Of a stretch of DNA of 63,483 nt, positions 28,358-58,686 are shown one piece after another (position 1 is the first letter of the stretch; each line of letters starts with the position of its first letter). The position numbers were made by a program, and so were the translations under genes. Origin of the DNA: Deinococci bacterium (GTDB lineage: Bacteria > Deinococcota > Deinococci > Deinococcales > Trueperaceae); assembly GCA_030149325.1 (NCBI GenBank), contig JASBRS010000019.1, forward strand, positions 1 to 63,483, given 5' to 3'. Under the pieces are notes generated by a model, which saw only the letters and a list, made by a program, of their open reading frames with translations, was not told the DNA's origin and ran no database searches.

Positions 28358-29242
28358 TCAGCCCTCGCTCTCCAGCCCCGCCTGCTCGCGCACGATGCGC
28401 GCGATGTTGGAGACGTCCTCGTCCCCCAGGCCGCGGCCGATCAGGCTGGTCTCGAGCTGTTCGACGTAGGCGGCCACCGGCACCGACACGCCCAGCTCCC
28501 GCGCCGCATCCAGGGCGATCCCCAGGTCCTTGCGGTGGAGCCGGGTCCGGAAGCCCAGCGGGTAGTGATCGACGATCATGTTGGGGCCGCGGTGGGTCAG
28601 GCACCACGAGCCGGCAGCGCCGCCCGAGACCGCAGCGTGCGCGGCCTCGATATCGATGCCGGCCGCCAGTCCCAGGGTCAGCCCTTCGGCCACCGCCGCG
28701 TAGGTCCCGGCGATGATGACCTGGTTGATGGCCTTCGTCACCTGGCCCGCGCCGCTGGGTCCGACGCGGGTGATGGTCGACCCCAGCACCTCGAGGACCG
28801 GCCGCACCCGCTCCAGCACCTCGGGGTCGCCGCCCACCATGATCGACAGGGTGCCGCGCTCGGCCCCCTCGCTGCCGCCCGAGACCGGTGCGTCGAGCAT
28901 CGCCACCCCGTGCTCGCCCAAGGCCGTGGCGATGAGGCGGGTGGTGGCGGGGCTGATGGTGCTCATGTCGACGAGCACGCTGCCCGCATCCATCCCGAGG
29001 GCCGCTCCCTCCTCGCCCAGCACCACCGCCTGCACGTCCGGGGTGTCGCTGACCATGGTGATGACCAGCTCGCGGTCGCGAGCGCACTCGCGCGGCGTGG
29101 CGGCACCGCGGGCGCCGAGCGCCGTCAGCGGCGCCTCGCGCTCCCGCGTGCGGTTGTGCACGGTGAGATCGTGCCCCGCCTCGAGCAGGCGTCGCGCCAT
29201 CGGCGCTCCCATGGTGCCCAGTCCAATGAAGCCGATCCTCAT
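28358..29242 (-). CDS. 3-hydroxyisobutyrate dehydrogenase-like NAD(P) oxidoreductase
   Basis: A 294-residue beta-hydroxyacid dehydrogenase. The Rossmann start is IGFIGLGTMGAPMARRLLEA, the substrate motif DAPVSGGSEGAERGTLSIMV follows near 120, and the catalytic Lys lies in GAGQVTKAINQVI. Candidates are 3-hydroxyisobutyrate, tartronate semialdehyde or succinic semialdehyde. Its ATG overlaps the acuC stop (ATGA at 29239-29242), making it the last gene of the acu operon. Confidence 0.9.
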   Translation of the reverse strand: MRIGFIGLGTMGAPMARRLLEAGHDLTVHNRTREREAPLTALGARGAATPRECARDRELVITMVSDTPDVQAVVLGEEGAALGMDAGSVLVDMSTISPATTRLIATALGEHGVAMLDAPVSGGSEGAERGTLSIMVGGDPEVLERVRPVLEVLGSTITRVGPSGAGQVTKAINQVIIAGTYAAVAEGLTLGLAAGIDIEAAHAAVSGGAAGSWCLTHRGPNMIVDHYPLGFRTRLHRKDLGIALDAARELGVSVPVAAYVEQLETSLIGRGLGDEDVSNIARIVREQAGLESEG

Positions 29243-30477
29243 CCGGGTCCCTCCCGATCGTCGTGGCGCGTGGCCTCGGCGTCGGTCCCGCGCTCGGCCC
29301 AGATGGTCTCCAGGACCTCCATCAGCCGAGCCGCGACCGCGCGGTTGTGCGAGCTTACCGTAGCCCGTCGCGGCACCGGCGGCCACGACGAAGGATCGTC
29401 GACCATGGTCTCGGGCAGCGGCAGCGCGCTGCTGCCCGCCCAGCGTTCGCGCCAGGTCTCGGGCACCCGCTCCGGCAAGGTCACGCCGGCGACCGCCGCC
29501 CACAGCAGCGACCAGGCGCGCGGGACCGTCCTGTAGGGGTCGTAGCCGCCCCCACCGGTGGCCACCAGGCGCCCACCGGTGAGCGCCTCGCTGAGCTCCA
29601 CCACACGGCGGTAGCTCGCTCCCATGGCGGCGAGGCTGACCGACAGGTCGGCCAGGGGGTCGTCGCGATGCATGTCGGCGCCCGCCTGCAGCACGATCAG
29701 GTCGGGACGGAAGGCCTCGAGGGCGCGCGGGACCACGGTCTCGAACGCTTCCAGGAAGGAGGCGTCCTCGGTGAAGGGCTCGAGCGGCATGTTCACGGCC
29801 AGGCCGCGCCCCGGCCCACGCCCGGTCTCGTAGGTGTGGCCCGTGCCGGGGAAGAGGTAGCGTCCCGATTCGTGCAGGCCGATGGTCATGACGTCGGGGG
29901 TGTCGTAGAACAGCCACTGCACGCCGTCGCCGTGGTGGACGTCGAGGTCGAGGTAGGCCACACGCAGCCCGTGGGCGTCGACGGCGCGGCGGATGCCCAG
30001 CGCCAGGTCGTTGTACACGCAGAAGCCGGAGGCCTTGGCGTGCATGGCGTGGTGCAGTCCGCCCGCCAGGTTGACGGCGCGGGTCGCGGCGCCCGAGGCC
30101 ACCAGCTCGACGGCGCTCACGGTCGCCGCGCACACCCGCAGCACCGCTTCGTGCATGTTCGGGAACACCGGGTTGTCGCCGGTGCCGAGGCCGAAGGCGT
30201 AGGCCTCGTCGCCGGCATCGCCGCGCGACGCGCGCTTGACGGCGTCGATGTAGCGCGTGGCGTGCACGCGGGCCAGCTCCCGTTCGGTGAGGGGCCCGAC
30301 GTCGGCGTAGGCCTCGCGGTCCAGGGCGCCGGTGGCTTCCAGCAGCGTCCGGGTGAGCTCCAGGCGCTCCGGCCGGAAGGGGTGTTCCGGCGCCAGCTCG
30401 TAGGCGGCGAGCGAGGCGTCGTAGACGAAGCGTACGCTCGGCGTCGAGCCGCCGGACGGGGCCGCCCCCTCGCTCAC
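29239..30477 (-). CDS. acuC: Acetoin utilization deacetylase AcuC
   Basis: A 412-residue class I-like histone deacetylase fold protein that in Bacillus removes acetyl groups from acetyl-CoA synthetase. Active-site residues are all present: GGLHHAMHAKASGFCVYND, LDLDVHHGDGVQ, QAGADMHRDDPLADL and GGGGYDP. The GTG at 30477 shares GTGA with the acuB stop; an ATG nine codons upstream (30504) is the alternative. Follows acuA and acuB in the same order as in Bacillus. Confidence 0.94.
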   Translation of the reverse strand: MSEGAAPSGGSTPSVRFVYDASLAAYELAPEHPFRPERLELTRTLLEATGALDREAYADVGPLTERELARVHATRYIDAVKRASRGDAGDEAYAFGLGTGDNPVFPNMHEAVLRVCAATVSAVELVASGAATRAVNLAGGLHHAMHAKASGFCVYNDLALGIRRAVDAHGLRVAYLDLDVHHGDGVQWLFYDTPDVMTIGLHESGRYLFPGTGHTYETGRGPGRGLAVNMPLEPFTEDASFLEAFETVVPRALEAFRPDLIVLQAGADMHRDDPLADLSVSLAAMGASYRRVVELSEALTGGRLVATGGGGYDPYRTVPRAWSLLWAAVAGVTLPERVPETWRERWAGSSALPLPETMVDDPSSWPPVPRRATVSSHNRAVAARLMEVLETIWAERGTDAEATRHDDREGPG

Positions 30478-31160
30478 GAGGTGGGGGTCTTGTCGATCGG
30501 CCACAGCACCACGAAGCCGGCGTCGCGCAGATGGTGGGCCAGCCGCCGCCCGTCGACGGTGCTCACGCGTAGCACGAAGGTCACCGACTCGGCGTCGGCG
30601 CGCGAGGTCATGACGCTGGAGACGTTGTGCTTGCGCTCGGCGATGGCCGCGAGCAACGAGGCGAGGGCGCCGGGCCGGTTGGGGACCTCCACCTCCAGAC
30701 GGGTGGCGGCCTCGTACACCCCCGACATCCGCACCAGGGCATCCAGCATGTCGATGCCGGTGACGATGCCGACCAGGCGGTCGCCGTCCATGACGGGCAT
30801 GGCGCCGATCTTGTGCTCGCGCAGGGTCTTGGCGGTCTCCTCGATGGGGTCGAGGGGGTGGGCGGTCAGCACCGGGCTCACCATCACGCGGCGCACCGGA
30901 TCGACGGCCGCCACGCCGGCGGGCGCCATCGGATGCTCGGCGCCCACCAGCCGCAGGTCGCGGTCGGAGACGATGCCGACCAGCCGATCGACGGCGTCGT
31001 CGGGGGCCTCCCCGGTCAGTCGCGCCGGCCCGCTGCCGCCGCTCTCCAGGATCGGGAAGTGGCGGATGTTGCGCTGCTCCATCAGGGCGTTGACGTCCTT
31101 GATCGGCATGTCCGGGCCGATCGCCACCACCTGGCGCGTCATGATGTCCTGTACCAGCAT
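30474..31160 (-). CDS. acuB: AcuB-like CBS and ACT domain protein
   Basis: A 228-residue regulator with two CBS motifs (VQDIMTRQVVAIGPDMPIKD at the start and VMVSPVLTAHPLDPIEE in the second) and a C-terminal ACT domain (RLEVEVPNRPGALASLLAAI). CBS pairs usually bind adenosine nucleotides and ACT domains bind amino acids. In B. subtilis acuB has no assigned catalytic role. The first CBS carries an extra Gly/Pro-rich loop (about 40-58). GGAGGGAAGC precedes the ATG; TATCCT at 31208-31213 may be a separate -10. Confidence 0.92.
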   Translation of the reverse strand: MLVQDIMTRQVVAIGPDMPIKDVNALMEQRNIRHFPILESGGSGPARLTGEAPDDAVDRLVGIVSDRDLRLVGAEHPMAPAGVAAVDPVRRVMVSPVLTAHPLDPIEETAKTLREHKIGAMPVMDGDRLVGIVTGIDMLDALVRMSGVYEAATRLEVEVPNRPGALASLLAAIAERKHNVSSVMTSRADAESVTFVLRVSTVDGRRLAHHLRDAGFVVLWPIDKTPTS

Positions 31161-31240: not shown

Positions 31241-31843
31241 TCAGCCGTAGAAGCGCGGACGCGTCCGCAGCCGATGGAACTCCTCGACGACGGCCGGGTC
31301 GGCGTGGGCGCCGATGCGGGCCATGAGCTGGTTGGCGGCGCTGCTGCGGATCTCGGCGTCGGCCGTCGGGAAGGGCACGAAGCCGGCGCTGCGGTACAGC
31401 CGCTCCAACAGCCGCTTGTAGGCGAAGTCGTTGAGGCCCGTGCGCTTGAGGTCGTAGTGCCAGACGTACATGGTGGCGAAGACCACGGTGTCCTCGTAGC
31501 GCCCGTCCTCGAAGCTGGCGGCGAGAAGACGCTCCGCGAGGCGCTGGCCGCGGTACGGCGGGGCCACCTCGACGGCCCCCAGCTCGATGATGCGGCCGGT
31601 ACGGTCCTCGCCCCACGACTCCACGTCGGACGGCGGGTGGAAGGCCGCGTACGCCACCATGACGCCGTCGTCGACGGCCACGCTGACGCAGGTGAGGGGA
31701 TCGCGGGCGATGCCCACGAGGGCCTGGTGCTGCTTGGCCGAGGGCCGGAACATGTCGATGGCGGGATGGGGCTCGAGGGTGGCCAGCCGGTCGCCGTCCA
31801 GGCACACCTCGATGCGGGCGGCCCTCTCCGCCGCGACGCTCAT
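31241..31843 (-). CDS. acuA: AcuA-like protein N-acetyltransferase
   Basis: A 200-residue GNAT enzyme. Its segments FRPSAKQHQALVGIA, IIELGAVEVAPPYRGQRLAE, YVWHYDLKRTG and NQLMARIG match the distinctive Bacillus AcuA pattern, in which AcuA acetylates and switches off acetyl-CoA synthetase. Together with AcuB and the deacetylase AcuC it forms a reversible lysine-acetylation switch. The ATG at 31843 has no clear Shine-Dalgarno and starts 16 bp after the big ATPase stop, so translation may depend on read-through from that gene. Confidence 0.93.
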   Translation of the reverse strand: MSVAAERAARIEVCLDGDRLATLEPHPAIDMFRPSAKQHQALVGIARDPLTCVSVAVDDGVMVAYAAFHPPSDVESWGEDRTGRIIELGAVEVAPPYRGQRLAERLLAASFEDGRYEDTVVFATMYVWHYDLKRTGLNDFAYKRLLERLYRSAGFVPFPTADAEIRSSAANQLMARIGAHADPAVVEEFHRLRTRPRFYG

Positions 31844-31859: not shown

Positions 31860-34800
31860 TCACGTGGGCACGGCGTTGCGCCGGTGCCGCCAGCGCGCCA
31901 CCAGCGCGTCGGGCAGGCGGGCGGGGCCCACGTCGGGGCGCACGTCGAGCCCCAGGAGCTCACCCAGGCGGACGTGCTCGCGCCAGGCTCCGTCGCCCGG
32001 GGGCATGCGCTCCGCGCCCTCGCCGAAGGCCCGCAGGAGTCCCTCGTGGTAGGCGGACAGGTCGGGGTCCTCCAGGGCGGCGGCGAGCCGTTCGGCGGCC
32101 TCCTCGGAGGCGCCGAGCTGCAGCTGGGTGGCGCCGGCCAGCGCGACGTACTGCGCCCGCAACCCGAGGTCGCCACGCTCGCCCGTGCCGGCCGCGGGCA
32201 GGGAGGCGCGGAGGGCGGCCTCGCCGCGAGCCAGGGACTCGGCGGCGCCGGAGGTGTCGGCCATCCGCAGGTAGGCGGCGACGGCGGCGGCGGACGCCTC
32301 GGCGCGCTGGTACTCGAAGCGCGAGGTCGCCACCGCCACCTCGGCGTGCTCCAGCGCCGCCTCCGGGCGGTCCGCCACCAGGCTGGCGTGCAGGTGGGCC
32401 TTGCGGACCAGCCCGGCGAACACCTGATCGCCCTCGCGGGCCTCCAGGGCGTCGAGCACTTCGCCGATCCGCTGGCGTGCATGCCGCAGATCGGGGAGGT
32501 CGGCCTGCGCCAGGGGCAGGACGGGGAGCGGCAGCCGGAAGGGCTGCGCCAGCCCGCGGCAGGCGTACGCCAACCCGATGTGCAGGGTGGTCCGCAGGAT
32601 GCGGTACTCGGCGTCGACCTCCATGGCGCGAGCGTAGGCACGGAAGCGCTCGATGGCGCGCGTCAGCGAGAAGGTGGCCTCTTCGAAGCGCCCCTCGGCC
32701 AACAAGGCCAGCGAGGCTTCGTCGTCGACCTTGGCCAACCAGAACTCGCGTTCGACGGGCTCGGCCTCCGAGGTCTCCAGGATGCTGCGCGCCGCCGCGA
32801 AGTCCTGCTGGGCGCTGAGGACGTCACCCATGCGGCGGTAGAGGGTGCCGCGGCGGGCCAGGAAGCGTGTCTGCTCCTGGACCAGCGCCTCCGAGCGATG
32901 GGCCAGGCGGACGGCCAGGTTGAGCTCGCGCAGAGCGCCGTCGAAGCGCCCCAGCTTGAGGGCGACGTCGCCCTTCTGGAAGGCGATCCGGGCGCGGATG
33001 AGGTCGTCGTCGGTGTGCACGCCGTCGAACTCGGCGAGGGCGCCCTCGAGGTCGCCGCGGTCCTTGGCGATCAGGCCCGCCCACACGTCGGCCTTGGCGC
33101 GCGCCAGCTCGCTGGCGGCATCGTCGTCGTCGACCCGTTCGAGCTCGCGCCGGGCGTCCACGTCGATGAGGCGTGCGGCCTCGTCGAGGCCGCTGCGCCA
33201 GCGCGCGATGCTCGCCCGAACCAGCGCCACCTCGGCGCGCAGGAGCGCCACCTCGGTCCCGGGGCAGGTCGCGAGCAGCCGCTGGGCCTGCTCGAAGCGG
33301 CCCTTGAGGACCTCGCCCTCGGCGCGTTTGAGGAGCGTCCAGGCGCGCACGTCGGCGTCGTCGGACGCCGCCAGGGCATCGAACGCGGCCACCGCGTCGG
33401 CGTGGTCGTAGCTGCCCAGCTTGACGTAGTGGGCGGCCACCTGACGTGCGATGCCTTGGAAGTCGGGGCCGCCGTCGAGCTCGCTCTCGGCGGCACTCCA
33501 GATGCGGCGCACCAGCGACTGCTGGATGCTGTGGCGACGCAGCCAGGTGGTCATGGTGTCCCAATCGCGTGCCTCGAAGACGTGGTGCAGGAAGCGCGAC
33601 GCCTTCTCCGAGCCGGGCTCGCGCCAGGCGGCGTCACGGTAGCCATCGGCGGCCGCCAGGTTGAGCGCGCGGTAGCGCTGCGGATCGCTGTCCTGGAGGC
33701 GCTGCCGCAGCGCGCGCGCGAGCTGCCGCGAGAAGCACCGGAAGGCGTCGTCGCTCCCCGGGACGGCGTCGAGGAACGCCAGCTCGAAGGTGTTGAGCTC
33801 GGCGCCGGGATTGCTGCGGAGGCGGGTGAGGACGTCGGAGCGGAAGGTCGGGAACTCGGGGATCGACAGCACCGCCAACGCCGACAGGAAGTCGCGCAGG
33901 CGCGCATCTCCCGAGGCCTCGACGAGCTTGCTGAGCTGCTCGATGGAGAGCTGGCTGCCCTCGAGCGCCTGCTCGCCGACGGGCTCGCGTACCTCGGCGA
34001 GCAGCGTCAGCGTGCGGAGCTCCTCGAACGACCTGCCGGCGCGCTGCACGATGTCCTCCTGTTGCGCCGGGGGCAGGTGCGGGAGGCGCGCCTTGACGAA
34101 CCTACGGGCCTCGGAGGTGGTGGGCGGGGTCAGCTTGATCGGACCGTCGAAGGTCCCCAGGCGCTGCATGGTACGCGCGGGGATGTCGGCCATGCTGGCC
34201 AGCACGGCCACATCGGGCAGACGTCCGAGGGGCTCGAGCAGCGAGAGCCACAGCCACTCCGAGGCGCTCACCCGGGGCACCTCGGGAGTGTTGAGGCGGA
34301 GGGGCGCCAGGCCCAGGCTGTCCTGTCCGGAGAGCGACTGCGAGACGTGGAGCAGGAACACGGTGCGCTCGTCGCCGTGGCGTGCGGCGTCGATGATGAC
34401 GCGCGCCACCTCGGCCTGGGCGTCGGCCTGCACGGCGAAGGCGCTCGAGCTCCCGATGCGCAGCAGCTTGCTCTCGATCAGCTCCGACGGGACCCCGAGC
34501 GCCTGCGCCAGCCGGCTCAGGGCGCTCGCGAGGTCGCTGCTGGAGAACTCCAGGCGGACAATGCGGTCGGCCGCCCGCGGCGGGATCTCGAGGGCCTGCT
34601 GAACGTAATCGGCCAGCAGGGTCTTGCCCGAACCCGGCCGGCCGGTCACCAGCAGACGCGGCGTCTCGCCGCTGCGCACCCCGCCCACGAACGTCCGGTA
34701 GGCGCGGCGCTTCTCGCGCCCGAGCAGTTGCAGCACCTCCTGCTCGGCCGAGCTCCCTGGGGAGAGCAACACCTCCAGTTCGGGAGCCCGGAACGGCGGC

Positions 34801-35051
34801 TGTCCCGTCGACTGCCACAGCTCGGTGAGGATCTCGAACAACACCCGCTTGTCGGGGAGCTTGCCCTTGTCGCGGTAGATGATGTTGCGCACCACGTTGG
34901 GGTTGGCGCCGCGGCGCTCCATCTCCTTGCGCAGCCAGTTGATGCTGCCCAGGACGCCGTTGGCGTCGCGTTTCTGGCCGACGGTCTTGCGTACGGCCTC
35001 GAAGATGCCACGCCACGGGCTGACGTGTTCGTCGGGAGGAGCGGAAGCCAT
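31860..35051 (-). CDS. Large P-loop ATPase with TPR-like tail, STAND-like
   Basis: A 1063-residue protein of unknown function. Residues about 15-85 form a small helical domain (LRKEMERRGANPNVVRNIIY) that I do not recognise. A P-loop NTPase follows with Walker A GRPGSGKT at 137-144; the Walker-B-like strand TVFLLHVSQSL (230-240) has His where Asp is normal. Residues about 360-500 look like a winged-helix/arm region, and about 540-1050 are alpha-helical repeats of TPR type (for example GRFDGALRELNLAVRLAHRS). This layout fits STAND signalling ATPases. TAAGAT eight bases before the ATG suggests a leaderless message. It is the first gene before acuABC, 16 bp from acuA. Confidence 0.8.
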   Translation of the reverse strand: MASAPPDEHVSPWRGIFEAVRKTVGQKRDANGVLGSINWLRKEMERRGANPNVVRNIIYRDKGKLPDKRVLFEILTELWQSTGQPPFRAPELEVLLSPGSSAEQEVLQLLGREKRRAYRTFVGGVRSGETPRLLVTGRPGSGKTLLADYVQQALEIPPRAADRIVRLEFSSSDLASALSRLAQALGVPSELIESKLLRIGSSSAFAVQADAQAEVARVIIDAARHGDERTVFLLHVSQSLSGQDSLGLAPLRLNTPEVPRVSASEWLWLSLLEPLGRLPDVAVLASMADIPARTMQRLGTFDGPIKLTPPTTSEARRFVKARLPHLPPAQQEDIVQRAGRSFEELRTLTLLAEVREPVGEQALEGSQLSIEQLSKLVEASGDARLRDFLSALAVLSIPEFPTFRSDVLTRLRSNPGAELNTFELAFLDAVPGSDDAFRCFSRQLARALRQRLQDSDPQRYRALNLAAADGYRDAAWREPGSEKASRFLHHVFEARDWDTMTTWLRRHSIQQSLVRRIWSAAESELDGGPDFQGIARQVAAHYVKLGSYDHADAVAAFDALAASDDADVRAWTLLKRAEGEVLKGRFEQAQRLLATCPGTEVALLRAEVALVRASIARWRSGLDEAARLIDVDARRELERVDDDDAASELARAKADVWAGLIAKDRGDLEGALAEFDGVHTDDDLIRARIAFQKGDVALKLGRFDGALRELNLAVRLAHRSEALVQEQTRFLARRGTLYRRMGDVLSAQQDFAAARSILETSEAEPVEREFWLAKVDDEASLALLAEGRFEEATFSLTRAIERFRAYARAMEVDAEYRILRTTLHIGLAYACRGLAQPFRLPLPVLPLAQADLPDLRHARQRIGEVLDALEAREGDQVFAGLVRKAHLHASLVADRPEAALEHAEVAVATSRFEYQRAEASAAAVAAYLRMADTSGAAESLARGEAALRASLPAAGTGERGDLGLRAQYVALAGATQLQLGASEEAAERLAAALEDPDLSAYHEGLLRAFGEGAERMPPGDGAWREHVRLGELLGLDVRPDVGPARLPDALVARWRHRRNAVPT

Positions 35052-35059
35052 CGTGGGTC

Positions 35060-35065
35060 ATCTTA
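35060..35065 (-). promoter_or_regulatory. Leaderless-type -10 box of the large ATPase
   Basis: TAAGAT on the minus strand, eight bases before the ATG at 35051. Upstream AT-rich bases (35080-35095) may carry the -35. Confidence 0.5.
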
Positions 35066-35160
35066 TCCCCCGATCCGTAAACAAGTACACAGGCAGGAGA
35101 CCCGACGGGCCGGCCGGGCCCCCGGTAGGGAGCGCTCCGGGCCGGGCGCCGAGCCGGTGC

Positions 35161-35166
35161 TATGCT
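35161..35166 (+). promoter_or_regulatory. Leaderless-type -10 box of mqnC
   Basis: TATGCT, seven bases before the ATG at 35174; an ATG inside the box itself is not usable as a start. Confidence 0.55.
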
Positions 35167-35173
35167 CGTGGCC

Positions 35174-36316
35174 ATGGACGTGCTCCACGAAGCTGCGACG
35201 GGGAGGCGCCTGACGCCCGAGGAGGCGGTCGGCCTGTACCGTACGCCGCTGTTCGCGCTGGCCGCGGCGGCCGATGCGGTGCGGCGCCAGCGCACCGACC
35301 CCGAGGTGGTCACCTACCTCATCGATCGCAACATCAACTACTCGAACGTGTGCTCGGTGGGGTGCAGCTTCTGCGGCTTCTACCGGACGCGGCGTCAGGA
35401 CGACGCCTACGTGCTCGGCTACGACGACATCTCCGACAAGGTGCGCGAGCTCGAGGAGGTGGGGGGGACCCGCATCCTGATGCAGGGGGGCGTGAACCGC
35501 TACCTGCCGATGGAGTGGTACGTCGAGCTTCTGCGCTTCCTGAAGGAACGGCACCCCGAGGTCCGGGTGGAGGCCTTCAGCCCCGAGGAGATCAAGGGCC
35601 TCTCCGAGCTGACCGGCATGACCTCCCGGGAGGTGCTCGTGGAGCTGCAGGCGGCCGGCCTCGACGGCCTCCCCGGCGGTGGCGGCGAGATCCTGGTCGA
35701 CGACGTCCGGCACGCGCGCCACGTGGCGCCCGGCCGCATCTCGTCCGACGACTGGATCGCCATCATGGCCGAGGCCCAGGCGCTGGGGCTCTACACCACC
35801 GCCACCATGGTGATCGGCTTCGGCGAGACGCCGGAGCAGCGGGTGGCCAGCATGATGCGGATCCGCGACCAACAGGACCGGGCGCTGGCGACCCACGGCA
35901 ACGGCTTCTCCGCCTTCATCTCCTGGACGCTGCAGACGCAGGGCGTCCGCATCGCCGGCAAGGTGCCCGGCGCCGGAGCGCACGAGTACCTCCAGAACGT
36001 GGCCGTCAGCCGCCTGCTGCTGGACAACGTCCCCAACTTCCAGGCCTCCTGGCCGACGATGGGCTACAAGGTCGCGCAGACGGCGTTGTCGTTCGGCTGC
36101 AACGACTTCGGCAGCACCATGCTGGAGGAGAACGTGGTGTCGCAGGCGGGCGCGCGGCACCGCTCCACGCCGGAGCGCGAGATCGTCCGGCAGATCGTCG
36201 ATGCGGGCTACCGGCCGGCGCAGCGCGACAGCCTCTACGGAGTGGTCCGCTACCCCGACGTGGACGTCCTGCTGGCGGTCCCCGAGGCGGCCGCGCCCGG
36301 CGCGGCCGCGGACTGA
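35174..36316 (+). CDS. mqnC: Cyclic dehypoxanthinyl futalosine synthase
   Basis: A 380-residue radical SAM enzyme of the futalosine route to menaquinone; it cyclises dehypoxanthine futalosine. The iron-sulfur motif is C60-x3-C64-x2-C67 in NINYSNVCSVGCSFCGFYR. Other MqnC-type segments are GGGGEILVDDVR, TTATMVIGFGETPEQRVASM, FSAFISWTLQTQ and FGCNDFGSTMLEENVVSQAG. The related MqnE differs in these regions. Followed 11 bp later by mqnX. Confidence 0.94.
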   Translation: MDVLHEAATGRRLTPEEAVGLYRTPLFALAAAADAVRRQRTDPEVVTYLIDRNINYSNVCSVGCSFCGFYRTRRQDDAYVLGYDDISDKVRELEEVGGTRILMQGGVNRYLPMEWYVELLRFLKERHPEVRVEAFSPEEIKGLSELTGMTSREVLVELQAAGLDGLPGGGGEILVDDVRHARHVAPGRISSDDWIAIMAEAQALGLYTTATMVIGFGETPEQRVASMMRIRDQQDRALATHGNGFSAFISWTLQTQGVRIAGKVPGAGAHEYLQNVAVSRLLLDNVPNFQASWPTMGYKVAQTALSFGCNDFGSTMLEENVVSQAGARHRSTPEREIVRQIVDAGYRPAQRDSLYGVVRYPDVDVLLAVPEAAAPGAAAD

Positions 36317-57426: not shown

Positions 57427-58050
57427 CTACCCCACCATCGGCGCGACCAGGCCGCTGCGCTCCACCAGCTCGAGCAGCGCGGCACGGTCGGCGGGGCGAT
57501 GGACGAAGTCGAGCTCGTCCGCGGGTACGGTCACCACCGGCGAGAGGTCGTAGTCGTCGATCCAGGCCTGGTAGAGGCGATCCAGCGACACCAGATAGGC
57601 GTCCTCGATGCCGGCCTCGTAGCCGCGCCCGCGCTGACGGATGTGACGCCGGAGCGTGGGCAGATCGGCCCGTAGGTAGATGAGCAGGTCGGGGGGCCGG
57701 AGCGCCGCGCTGATCGCCTCGTACATGGTGCGGTAGCTGCGGTGGTCGCGCGCGTCGAGGATGCCGCGCTCGTGGAGGTTGCGCGCGAACACCGCGGCGT
57801 CCTCGTAGACGGTGCGGTCCTGGATGACGCGTTGCCCGGGATTCACCTGGCGGAGGTGCTGGCGCAGGCGCGCCGCCAGGAAGAACATCTGGGAGTGGAA
57901 GGCGTAGCGGCGCATGTCGCGGTAGAAGTCCTCGAGGTACGGGTTCTCGTCGACCGCCTCGTAGACCGGCTCGAGGTGGTAGCGCTCCGACAGGATGCGC
58001 GTGAGACTGGACTTGCCGGCTCCGATGTTGCCGGCCACGGCCACGTACAT
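57427..58050 (-). CDS. Deoxynucleoside kinase (dAdo/dCyd type)
   Basis: A 207-residue kinase of the dNK family. P-loop GNIGAGKSS (7-15), substrate segment EAVDENPYLEDFYRDMRRY, the DRT variant of the D/E-R-S motif (QDRTVYEDAAVFA) and a lid R-x-R-G-R stretch (RQRGRGYEAG). Comparable to Bacillus deoxyadenosine/deoxycytidine kinase. GAGGAGG lies before the ATG; it follows the next kinase by 9 bp. Confidence 0.93.
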   Translation of the reverse strand: MYVAVAGNIGAGKSSLTRILSERYHLEPVYEAVDENPYLEDFYRDMRRYAFHSQMFFLAARLRQHLRQVNPGQRVIQDRTVYEDAAVFARNLHERGILDARDHRSYRTMYEAISAALRPPDLLIYLRADLPTLRRHIRQRGRGYEAGIEDAYLVSLDRLYQAWIDDYDLSPVVTVPADELDFVHRPADRAALLELVERSGLVAPMVG

Positions 58051-58059
58051 GCCGCCTCC

Positions 58060-58662
58060 TCAGGCCGCCCGGGCCTGGCTGATGAGCTCGCGCAGCAGCG
58101 CCCTGCGGTCGTCCTCGTTGGCGACGTAGTCGACCTCCGCCGCCTCGACCACGTGCACGGGGTAGGGGGCGTGCCGGAAGTGGTCGTCGTAGGCCTCGCC
58201 GATGCGCTGCAGGTAGTCCGGGTCGATGGTGTGCTCGAAGGGGCGTCCGCGCTTGGCGATGCGCTCGAGCAGCAGCGCGGGTTCGGCCCGCAGGTAGACG
58301 ACCAGATCGGGGCGCGGCAAGCGCGGACGGAGCTGCTCGAAGAGCTCGCGGTAGAGCTCCCACTCGGCACCGGCGAGGTTGAGCGATGCGAACAGGAAGT
58401 CCTTCTCGAACAGGTAGTCCGAGACGGTGTGGCGATGGAACAGCGCCTCCTGTGCGAGCGCCATGTGCTGGCGGAAGCGCGACAGCAGGAAGAACACCTG
58501 GGTCTGGAAGGCGTAGCGCTGCGGGTCGTCGTAGAACGACGCCAGGAACGGGTTCTCCTCGACCACCTCGAGCACGACGCGGGCGTCCAGCTCCGAGGCC
58601 AGGTAGTGGCTCAGACTGGTCTTGCCGACCCCGATCGGCCCTTCAACGACGATGGTGGCCAT
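58060..58662 (-). CDS. Deoxynucleoside kinase (dGuo type)
   Basis: A 200-residue paralogue of the downstream kinase: P-loop GPIGVGKTS (8-16), EVVEENPFLASFYDDPQRYA, HTVSDYLFEKDFLFA (the segment seen in deoxyguanosine kinases in place of DRS), and lid AKRGRPFE. The pair resembles the dgk-dck pair of Gram-positive bacteria, whose products can form heterodimers. Start at 58662; TATACT 24 bases upstream. Confidence 0.92.
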   Translation of the reverse strand: MATIVVEGPIGVGKTSLSHYLASELDARVVLEVVEENPFLASFYDDPQRYAFQTQVFFLLSRFRQHMALAQEALFHRHTVSDYLFEKDFLFASLNLAGAEWELYRELFEQLRPRLPRPDLVVYLRAEPALLLERIAKRGRPFEHTIDPDYLQRIGEAYDDHFRHAPYPVHVVEAAEVDYVANEDDRRALLRELISQARAA

Positions 58663-58686
58663 GGCCCCGCCCCTGCACAACGACCG

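Follow-up and report, generated by a model that had tools for sequence, protein, structure and literature searches.

Putative transcriptional regulators of acetate metabolism in a two-branch family of STAND-like proteins from Deinococcota

The window (the whole stretch of 63,483 nucleotides analyzed here, from a bacterium of the family Trueperaceae) contains a gene for a STAND-like protein of 1063 residues, tentatively referred to as STAND-I to distinguish it from a second branch of the same protein family, STAND-II. On balance, we lean towards STAND-I being a STAND-like transcription factor that controls its own operon by binding a site with GTGTA in the STAND-I promoter, with STAND-II regulating acetate genes. 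The family is named in none of the libraries that we searched, and we conclude that its members most likely act in C2 metabolism as STAND-like transcription factors. DNA binding by the STAND protein, autoregulation, the ligand, and the direction of control are what we infer from the observations below.

The STAND-I gene runs on the minus strand from an ATG at position 35051 to a TGA at position 31860, as delimited by its open reading frame, its orthologues, an AlphaFold2 model, and Foldseek matches. Its product consists of an N-terminal HTH-like domain, a NOD, an arm, and a TPR sensor. In the AlphaFold2 model (40 sequences, mean pLDDT 88.5), N-terminal helices and a small hairpin are followed by an alpha/beta P-loop domain (residues 132-307), by helical and winged-helix parts, and by a long paired-helix array that extends to the C-terminus. 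The first-ranked Foldseek match of this model in the PDB is 6mfv (E 1.9e-9; TM-score 0.34 by target length), and model and match together place the NOD-WHD-arm-repeat sensor fold in STAND-I. The sensor, at about residues 566-1060 (31872..33356, minus strand), is delimited by helices of the model, a weak TPR_8 match, and TPR matches in the PDB; in the Pfam scan, AAA_16 and TPR were seen only below the cut-off. An initial annotation, made from the sequence alone and giving no strand, had described a STAND-like architecture with about 500 residues of TPR-like repeats and a Walker B in which His replaces Asp, and the model and the orthologues bear out all three.

The same annotation had left a small helical domain at the N-terminus unrecognized, and indeed the N-terminal ~90 residues of STAND-I matched no Pfam or NCBIfam family. 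Residues 1-90 are the best conserved stretch of the protein, with the signature GSINWLRxxMExRGANPNVVRNIIYRDKG in the orthologue alignment, and the domain core (residues 12-81; 34809..35018, minus strand; model pLDDT 82) has predicted helices at residues 12-24, 37-46, 51-60, and 65-81. Searched alone, this domain gave weak PDB matches, of which the nameable top ones were a phage repressor, C-protein, EspR, and Cro, and matched an immunity repressor, HipB, and Cro in BFVD with E 0.05-0.07; across searches, its Cro/C1-type fold matches ranged from E 0.05 to 5, none being better than 0.05. The fold thus points weakly to a Cro/C1-type HTH, and sequence profiles do not support this: Pfam gave no HTH_3-type match, and hhalign against two XRE domains of the same genome was negative, which speaks against an XRE identity by sequence profile. 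We regard the domain as probably DNA-binding, and residues 51-60 (PNVVRNIIYR) are proposed as its recognition helix. A LuxR- or SARP-type regulator, an identity that the initial annotation had allowed for, was ruled out, as the Pfam scan (E 1) found neither a C-terminal LuxR HTH nor SARP/BTAD domains in STAND-I. The window genome (G000) also contains an ordinary 870-codon frame (L313, L035; G000:C44:71571-72395) encoding an XRE-type HTH with an AAA_16 P-loop, which offers a useful canonical comparison.

Downstream of this domain, LLGREKR (residues 109-115; 34707..34727, minus strand), in which G111, R112, K114, and R115 are nearly invariant, resembles what we take to be the hhGRE motif that precedes the P-loop in STAND proteins. 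The Walker A motif GRPGSGKT (residues 137-144; 34620..34643, minus strand), which fits the consensus GxxxxGK[T/S], has its G, K, and T invariant in 26/26 STAND-I rows of the alignment. The Walker B strand, FLLHVSQ (residues 232-238; 34338..34358, minus strand), is degenerate: the acid position is occupied by His235, which 25 of 26 orthologues retain and one replaces by Gln, Ser237 is kept in all 26, and the acidic Walker B (hhhhD[D/E]) of STAND NTPases is absent from these 26 rows. GRS at residues 339-341 may correspond to the GxP motif, a placement made by eye at a site that has no Pro. With the Walker B acid missing, STAND-I probably binds nucleotide but hydrolyzes it slowly or not at all. 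Since the Walker B motif fails and the effector domain belongs to no named family, we regard STAND-I as a probable regulator working like PH0952 or STAND proteins of the MalT type and not as a canonical STAND ATPase.

STAND-I orthologues are present in 30 of the 37 genomes of the Trueperaceae, with 45-63% identity and no internal stop, as a single-copy, vertically inherited gene, and the family occurs in nearly all Thermaceae. The 30 include one truncated orthologue, in G002 (L060; G002:C91, 7864-9045), which at 393 aa contains only the N-terminal domain and part of the P-loop domain; acuC lies ~1.6 kb from its start, and the gene seems to be decaying or rearranged. Profile searches gave matches in 95/111 Deinococcota genomes, some of them merely TPR or P-loop noise. 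A scan of 84,980 species with two short patterns, which could miss distant relatives elsewhere, returned only Trueperaceae and related Deinococcota MAGs, Thermus, Meiothermus, Calidithermus, and one Thermaceae MAG. Such a distribution bears on the reading of STAND-I as an anti-phage or abortive-infection protein (Avs-like), with the unrecognized N-terminal domain as effector, to which the STAND architecture and the presence of Avs3 (8dgc) among the Foldseek matches lend some color. We give this reading very little credence: besides the vertical distribution, PADLOC returned P-loop noise only, with no defence model above noise, no defence neighbours were seen around STAND-I, and its promoter motif is conserved and private. 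A defence-system identity was ruled out on the PADLOC result, the neighbours, and the distribution, and the Pfam and PADLOC scans agree with the initial annotation in revealing no nuclease, TIR, or protease effector.

In the phylogenetic tree, STAND-I, which includes the window gene and is confined to Trueperaceae, separates from STAND-II, which is found in Thermus, Meiothermus, and Truepera and whose members in the tree come from Thermaceae, G038, and the Trueperaceae genomes G010, G012, G013, and G017, these four containing both branches; an f2-family lineage (G041) branches beside STAND-II. Outside STAND-I, the Walker A Thr is replaced by Gly in 11 of 14 aligned rows, and Glu stands in the His235 column in 13 of the 14. 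As the Walker motifs have degenerated differently in each branch, both STAND-I and STAND-II look unable to hydrolyze ATP normally, and the loss of the Walker B acid in one branch vs. that of the Mg-binding Thr of Walker A in the other would provide a natural test of how the STAND switch works. In four Thermus genomes (G091, G098, G102, and G107), STAND-II is split into at least two pieces while aceA is intact, suggestive of frameshifts or decay; two pieces in G107 overlap by a few bases.

STAND-I heads an operon-like run of minus-strand genes, comprising acuA (GNAT acetyltransferase; 31241..31843), acuB (CBS-CBS-ACT; 30474..31160), and acuC (histone-deacetylase fold; 29239..30504), which were assigned from Pfam domains and gene order, and ending in a 3-hydroxyisobutyrate-dehydrogenase-like gene (hibadh; 28358..29242). 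The start of acuA is 16 bp past the STAND-I stop and, as previously noted, acuA lacks its own ribosome site, no AGGAGG-type site being found in the gap. On the other side, STAND-I shares an intergenic region with the divergent mqnC (35162..36316, plus strand). Farther away in the window (57427-58680, minus strand), there is a tandem pair of similar P-loop kinase genes, which seem to be deoxynucleoside-kinase-like.

The link to acuABC raised by the initial annotation holds in part. The gene after STAND-I is acuA in genera g1, g5, g8, g10, and g13, acuB in g12 and g15, and acuC in g14 (G013), and acuC is near the truncated STAND-I copy in g3; acuA, acuB, or acuC follows STAND-I in about nine genera. 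The link has been kept in G009 and G013 after rearrangement, with mqnC and hibadh not nearby. In genus g16, G005, and G024, STAND-I and hibadh are retained with no acuABC in between, several genera have lost acuABC and kept STAND-I, and many genomes contain acuA without STAND-I. The link is conserved but not obligate, and the distribution rules out acuABC as an obligate partner. Such mutually independent losses, together with the synteny of the whole mqnC-to-mreB block within the family, are also what an ordinary conserved housekeeping STAND/TPR scaffold might display, its acuABC and mqnC neighbours reflecting inherited order and its motif being merely its promoter. We find this improbable, as the acu link survives in G009 and G013 despite the broken block, the promoter motif recurs at STAND-II and aceA promoters of other families, and STAND-II lies beside aceA in distant lineages.

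The promoter of STAND-I contains a conserved element, TGTGTACTTGTTTAC, at the -35 position (35077..35091, minus strand), identified by alignment of orthologue upstream regions, and a -10-like TAAGAT (35060..35065, minus strand) 8 nt before the ATG, which aligns with TAAACT, TACAAT, or TAGAAT of orthologues. The aligned regions share cTGTGTACTtGtNtAC at -35 and, past a spacer, TANNNT, with the start codon lying 6-12 nt beyond it, an arrangement suggestive of a leaderless promoter. TGTGTACT occurs in 19/30 STAND-I promoters vs. 0.3% of random windows, and TGTAC in 26/30 vs. 3%; the exact motif is missing from some orthologues (L043, L012, L058, and L060). TGTGTAC is found in 16 of 22 STAND-I promoters and in none of 62 other upstream regions (acnA 0/15, mreB 0/13, mqnX 0/16, acuA 0/7, acuB 0/11). 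Its count upstream of mqnC (10/14) is due to the common intergenic region; the motif is present without adjacent mqnC in G017, G001, and G008, with near-matches in G009, G013, and G005. The GTGTA motif could nonetheless act for mqnC, or a different regulator could bind it.

Genome-wide, the pattern TGTGTACTN{15,19}TANNNT has exactly one match in each of G000, G007, G025, G033, and G015, always at the STAND-I promoter, and a search for extra copies allowing 3 mismatches performed no better than a reversed-pattern control. A private, gene-specific element of this kind is more in keeping with autoregulation than with an alternative sigma factor or a global regulator. A near-copy of the motif, CTGTGTACTTGTGTAC, stands before a luciferase-like monooxygenase gene in G013 (L260; G013:C1, about 1173071), possibly as a second target and possibly by chance. 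The earlier suggestion that STAND-I drives expression of the acetylation module gains indirect support from the operon-like run, from the family-wide conservation of the promoter motif, and from the ties of STAND-II to acetate genes.

In Thermus, STAND-II is located between the genes for isocitrate lyase and SufC. These are numbered TTHA1836 and TTHA1838, respectively (PMC7662524), which would make TTHA1837 the STAND-II gene; our literature search found no paper naming TTHA1837 or connecting Thermus isocitrate lyase with a TPR protein. By coordinates, STAND-II adjoins aceA in Thermus, g31, g29, Calidithermus, and two Meiothermus; in G013 the two genes are neighbours in convergent orientation. 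Of the 111 genomes, 53 have isocitrate lyase, and each of these 53 has a member of the STAND family. GTGTA or TACAC occurs in 33/34 deduplicated STAND-II promoters and 30/30 aceA or aceBA promoters, ranking second and first, respectively, among 512 5-mer pairs, and in STAND-I promoters comes third after words that overlap it. The counts are not independent of phylogeny, and coding DNA forms part of the background.

Upstream of aceA, or of aceB where aceB and aceA form an operon, are mostly two GTGT-N13-15-ACAC palindromes, nearly all such pairs being spaced 32 or 33 bp centre to centre, and four families carry GTGTA sites there. The tandem palindromes are also found in Meiothermus with aceA unlinked to STAND-II and in G012, G013, and G038, and the aceA region of G041 has just two TACAC half-sites. 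In the complete genome G038, GTGTAN{11,13}TACAC has three sites (reversed control, 0), located 125 bp before STAND-II, in front of aceB, and about 50 bp before ppdK; G013 has seven, two at aceB and one between divergent acs genes, and in each of two Thermus genomes one site lies about 40 bp upstream of ppdK. The ppdK sites of G038 and the two Thermus genomes (L254, L263, L302), ~40-50 bp before the gene, are GTGTA-N13-TACAC palindromes, which would extend the putative regulon to gluconeogenesis. Other matches in G013, G080, and G101 fall inside genes, lie close to transposases, or are unclear. G017, which has STAND-II and no isocitrate lyase match, retains a perfect site in the promoter of its STAND-II gene. 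With the laxer GGTGTN{14,15}ACACC, aceA was found again in several Thermus and in G067, as was ppdK in G101 and G038; it was ruled out as a specific pattern, its control counts being similar in several genomes. What STAND-I promoters have in common with STAND-II targets is the GTGTA word alone, without the full palindrome, and no convincing GTGTA operators were found upstream of acs or ppdK in genomes that have STAND-I only, so the STAND-I regulon may be its own operon alone.

As a working mechanism, a ligand or partner on the TPR array would switch STAND-I between a closed and an open, multimeric, DNA-binding form, the signal being, at a guess, a report of acetate/acetyl-CoA state. The N-terminal HTH-like effector would bind the GTGTA-containing site in the STAND-I promoter and, by autoregulation, control STAND-I-acuA-acuB-acuC-hibadh. 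STAND-II would regulate aceBA or aceA, ppdK, acs, and itself through the GTGT-N13-15-ACAC palindromes, tandem at aceA. More broadly, and at a little under an even chance, the two-branch family (found here only in Deinococcota) would run acetate/C2 metabolism without a canonical ATP-hydrolysis site. In Thermus, Meiothermus, and Truepera, STAND-II would then act on aceBA, ppdK, and acs as an as yet unnamed regulator of the glyoxylate shunt and of gluconeogenesis, its GTGTA palindromes at aceA being tandem and phased by three helical turns, and STAND-I would autoregulate the acuABC operon. If true, one regulator family would join transcription of aceBA, acs, and ppdK with acetylation of acetyl-CoA synthetase by AcuA. 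The proposal gives a function-level hypothesis with named operators for a family that almost all genomes of Thermus, Meiothermus, and Trueperaceae contain, and is directly testable in the genetically tractable Thermus.

The strongest rival is that the GTGTA sites belong to another regulator, e.g., of the CRP/FNR family, and that the STAND gene is a co-regulated target whose product acts by protein-protein signalling. For T. thermophilus TTHB099, the binding site is TGT(A/g)N8(T/c)ACA, and deleting the gene raises isocitrate lyase and PEP synthase mRNA (PMC7662524); TTHB099 has TGTA/TACA half-sites in common with the operators here and affects isocitrate lyase expression, and TGTGTACTTGTTTACG in the window resembles its 16-mer. 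We nevertheless regard this explanation as unlikely. The TTHB099 site is 16 bp with N8, whereas the aceA and aceBA operators measure 21-23 bp, separate GTGT from ACAC by 13-15 bp, and are mostly tandem at 32-33 bp; in many STAND-I orthologues the second half of the site is not conserved, whereas TGTGTACT is; and no TTHB099 site is reported near TTHB099's own gene (PMC7662524). One motif match per genome, as seen for STAND-I in several genomes, also ill suits a global regulator.

Among known STAND proteins, GutR has an N-terminal DNA-binding domain followed by NOD and TPR, and the DNA-binding domain of MalT, the E. coli maltose activator, is C-terminal and of LuxR type. STAND-I differs from MalT in the proposed N-terminal position of its DNA-binding domain and in having no LuxR domain. 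MalT is a ligand-switched, multimeric STAND transcription factor with a TPR sensor, in which hydrolysis resets the switch (PMC4381067), and is our proposed working model for STAND-I. AfsR, as described in PMC10936776, likewise has the order DNA-binding domain, NOD, and TPR; STAND-I would share this order with GutR and AfsR but lacks a SARP domain and has different proposed targets. PH0952 of Pyrococcus horikoshii (6MFV), the first fold match, is predicted to be a STAND transcription factor and combines an N-terminal DNA-binding domain with a NOD, an arm, and a TPR sensor (PMC6468293), an organization that STAND-I resembles, its own N-terminal domain being probably of DNA-binding type. The N-terminal domain of PH0952 is ArsR-like, whereas that of STAND-I belongs to no family and is at best Cro/C1-like, and the Walker B acid has been lost in STAND-I.
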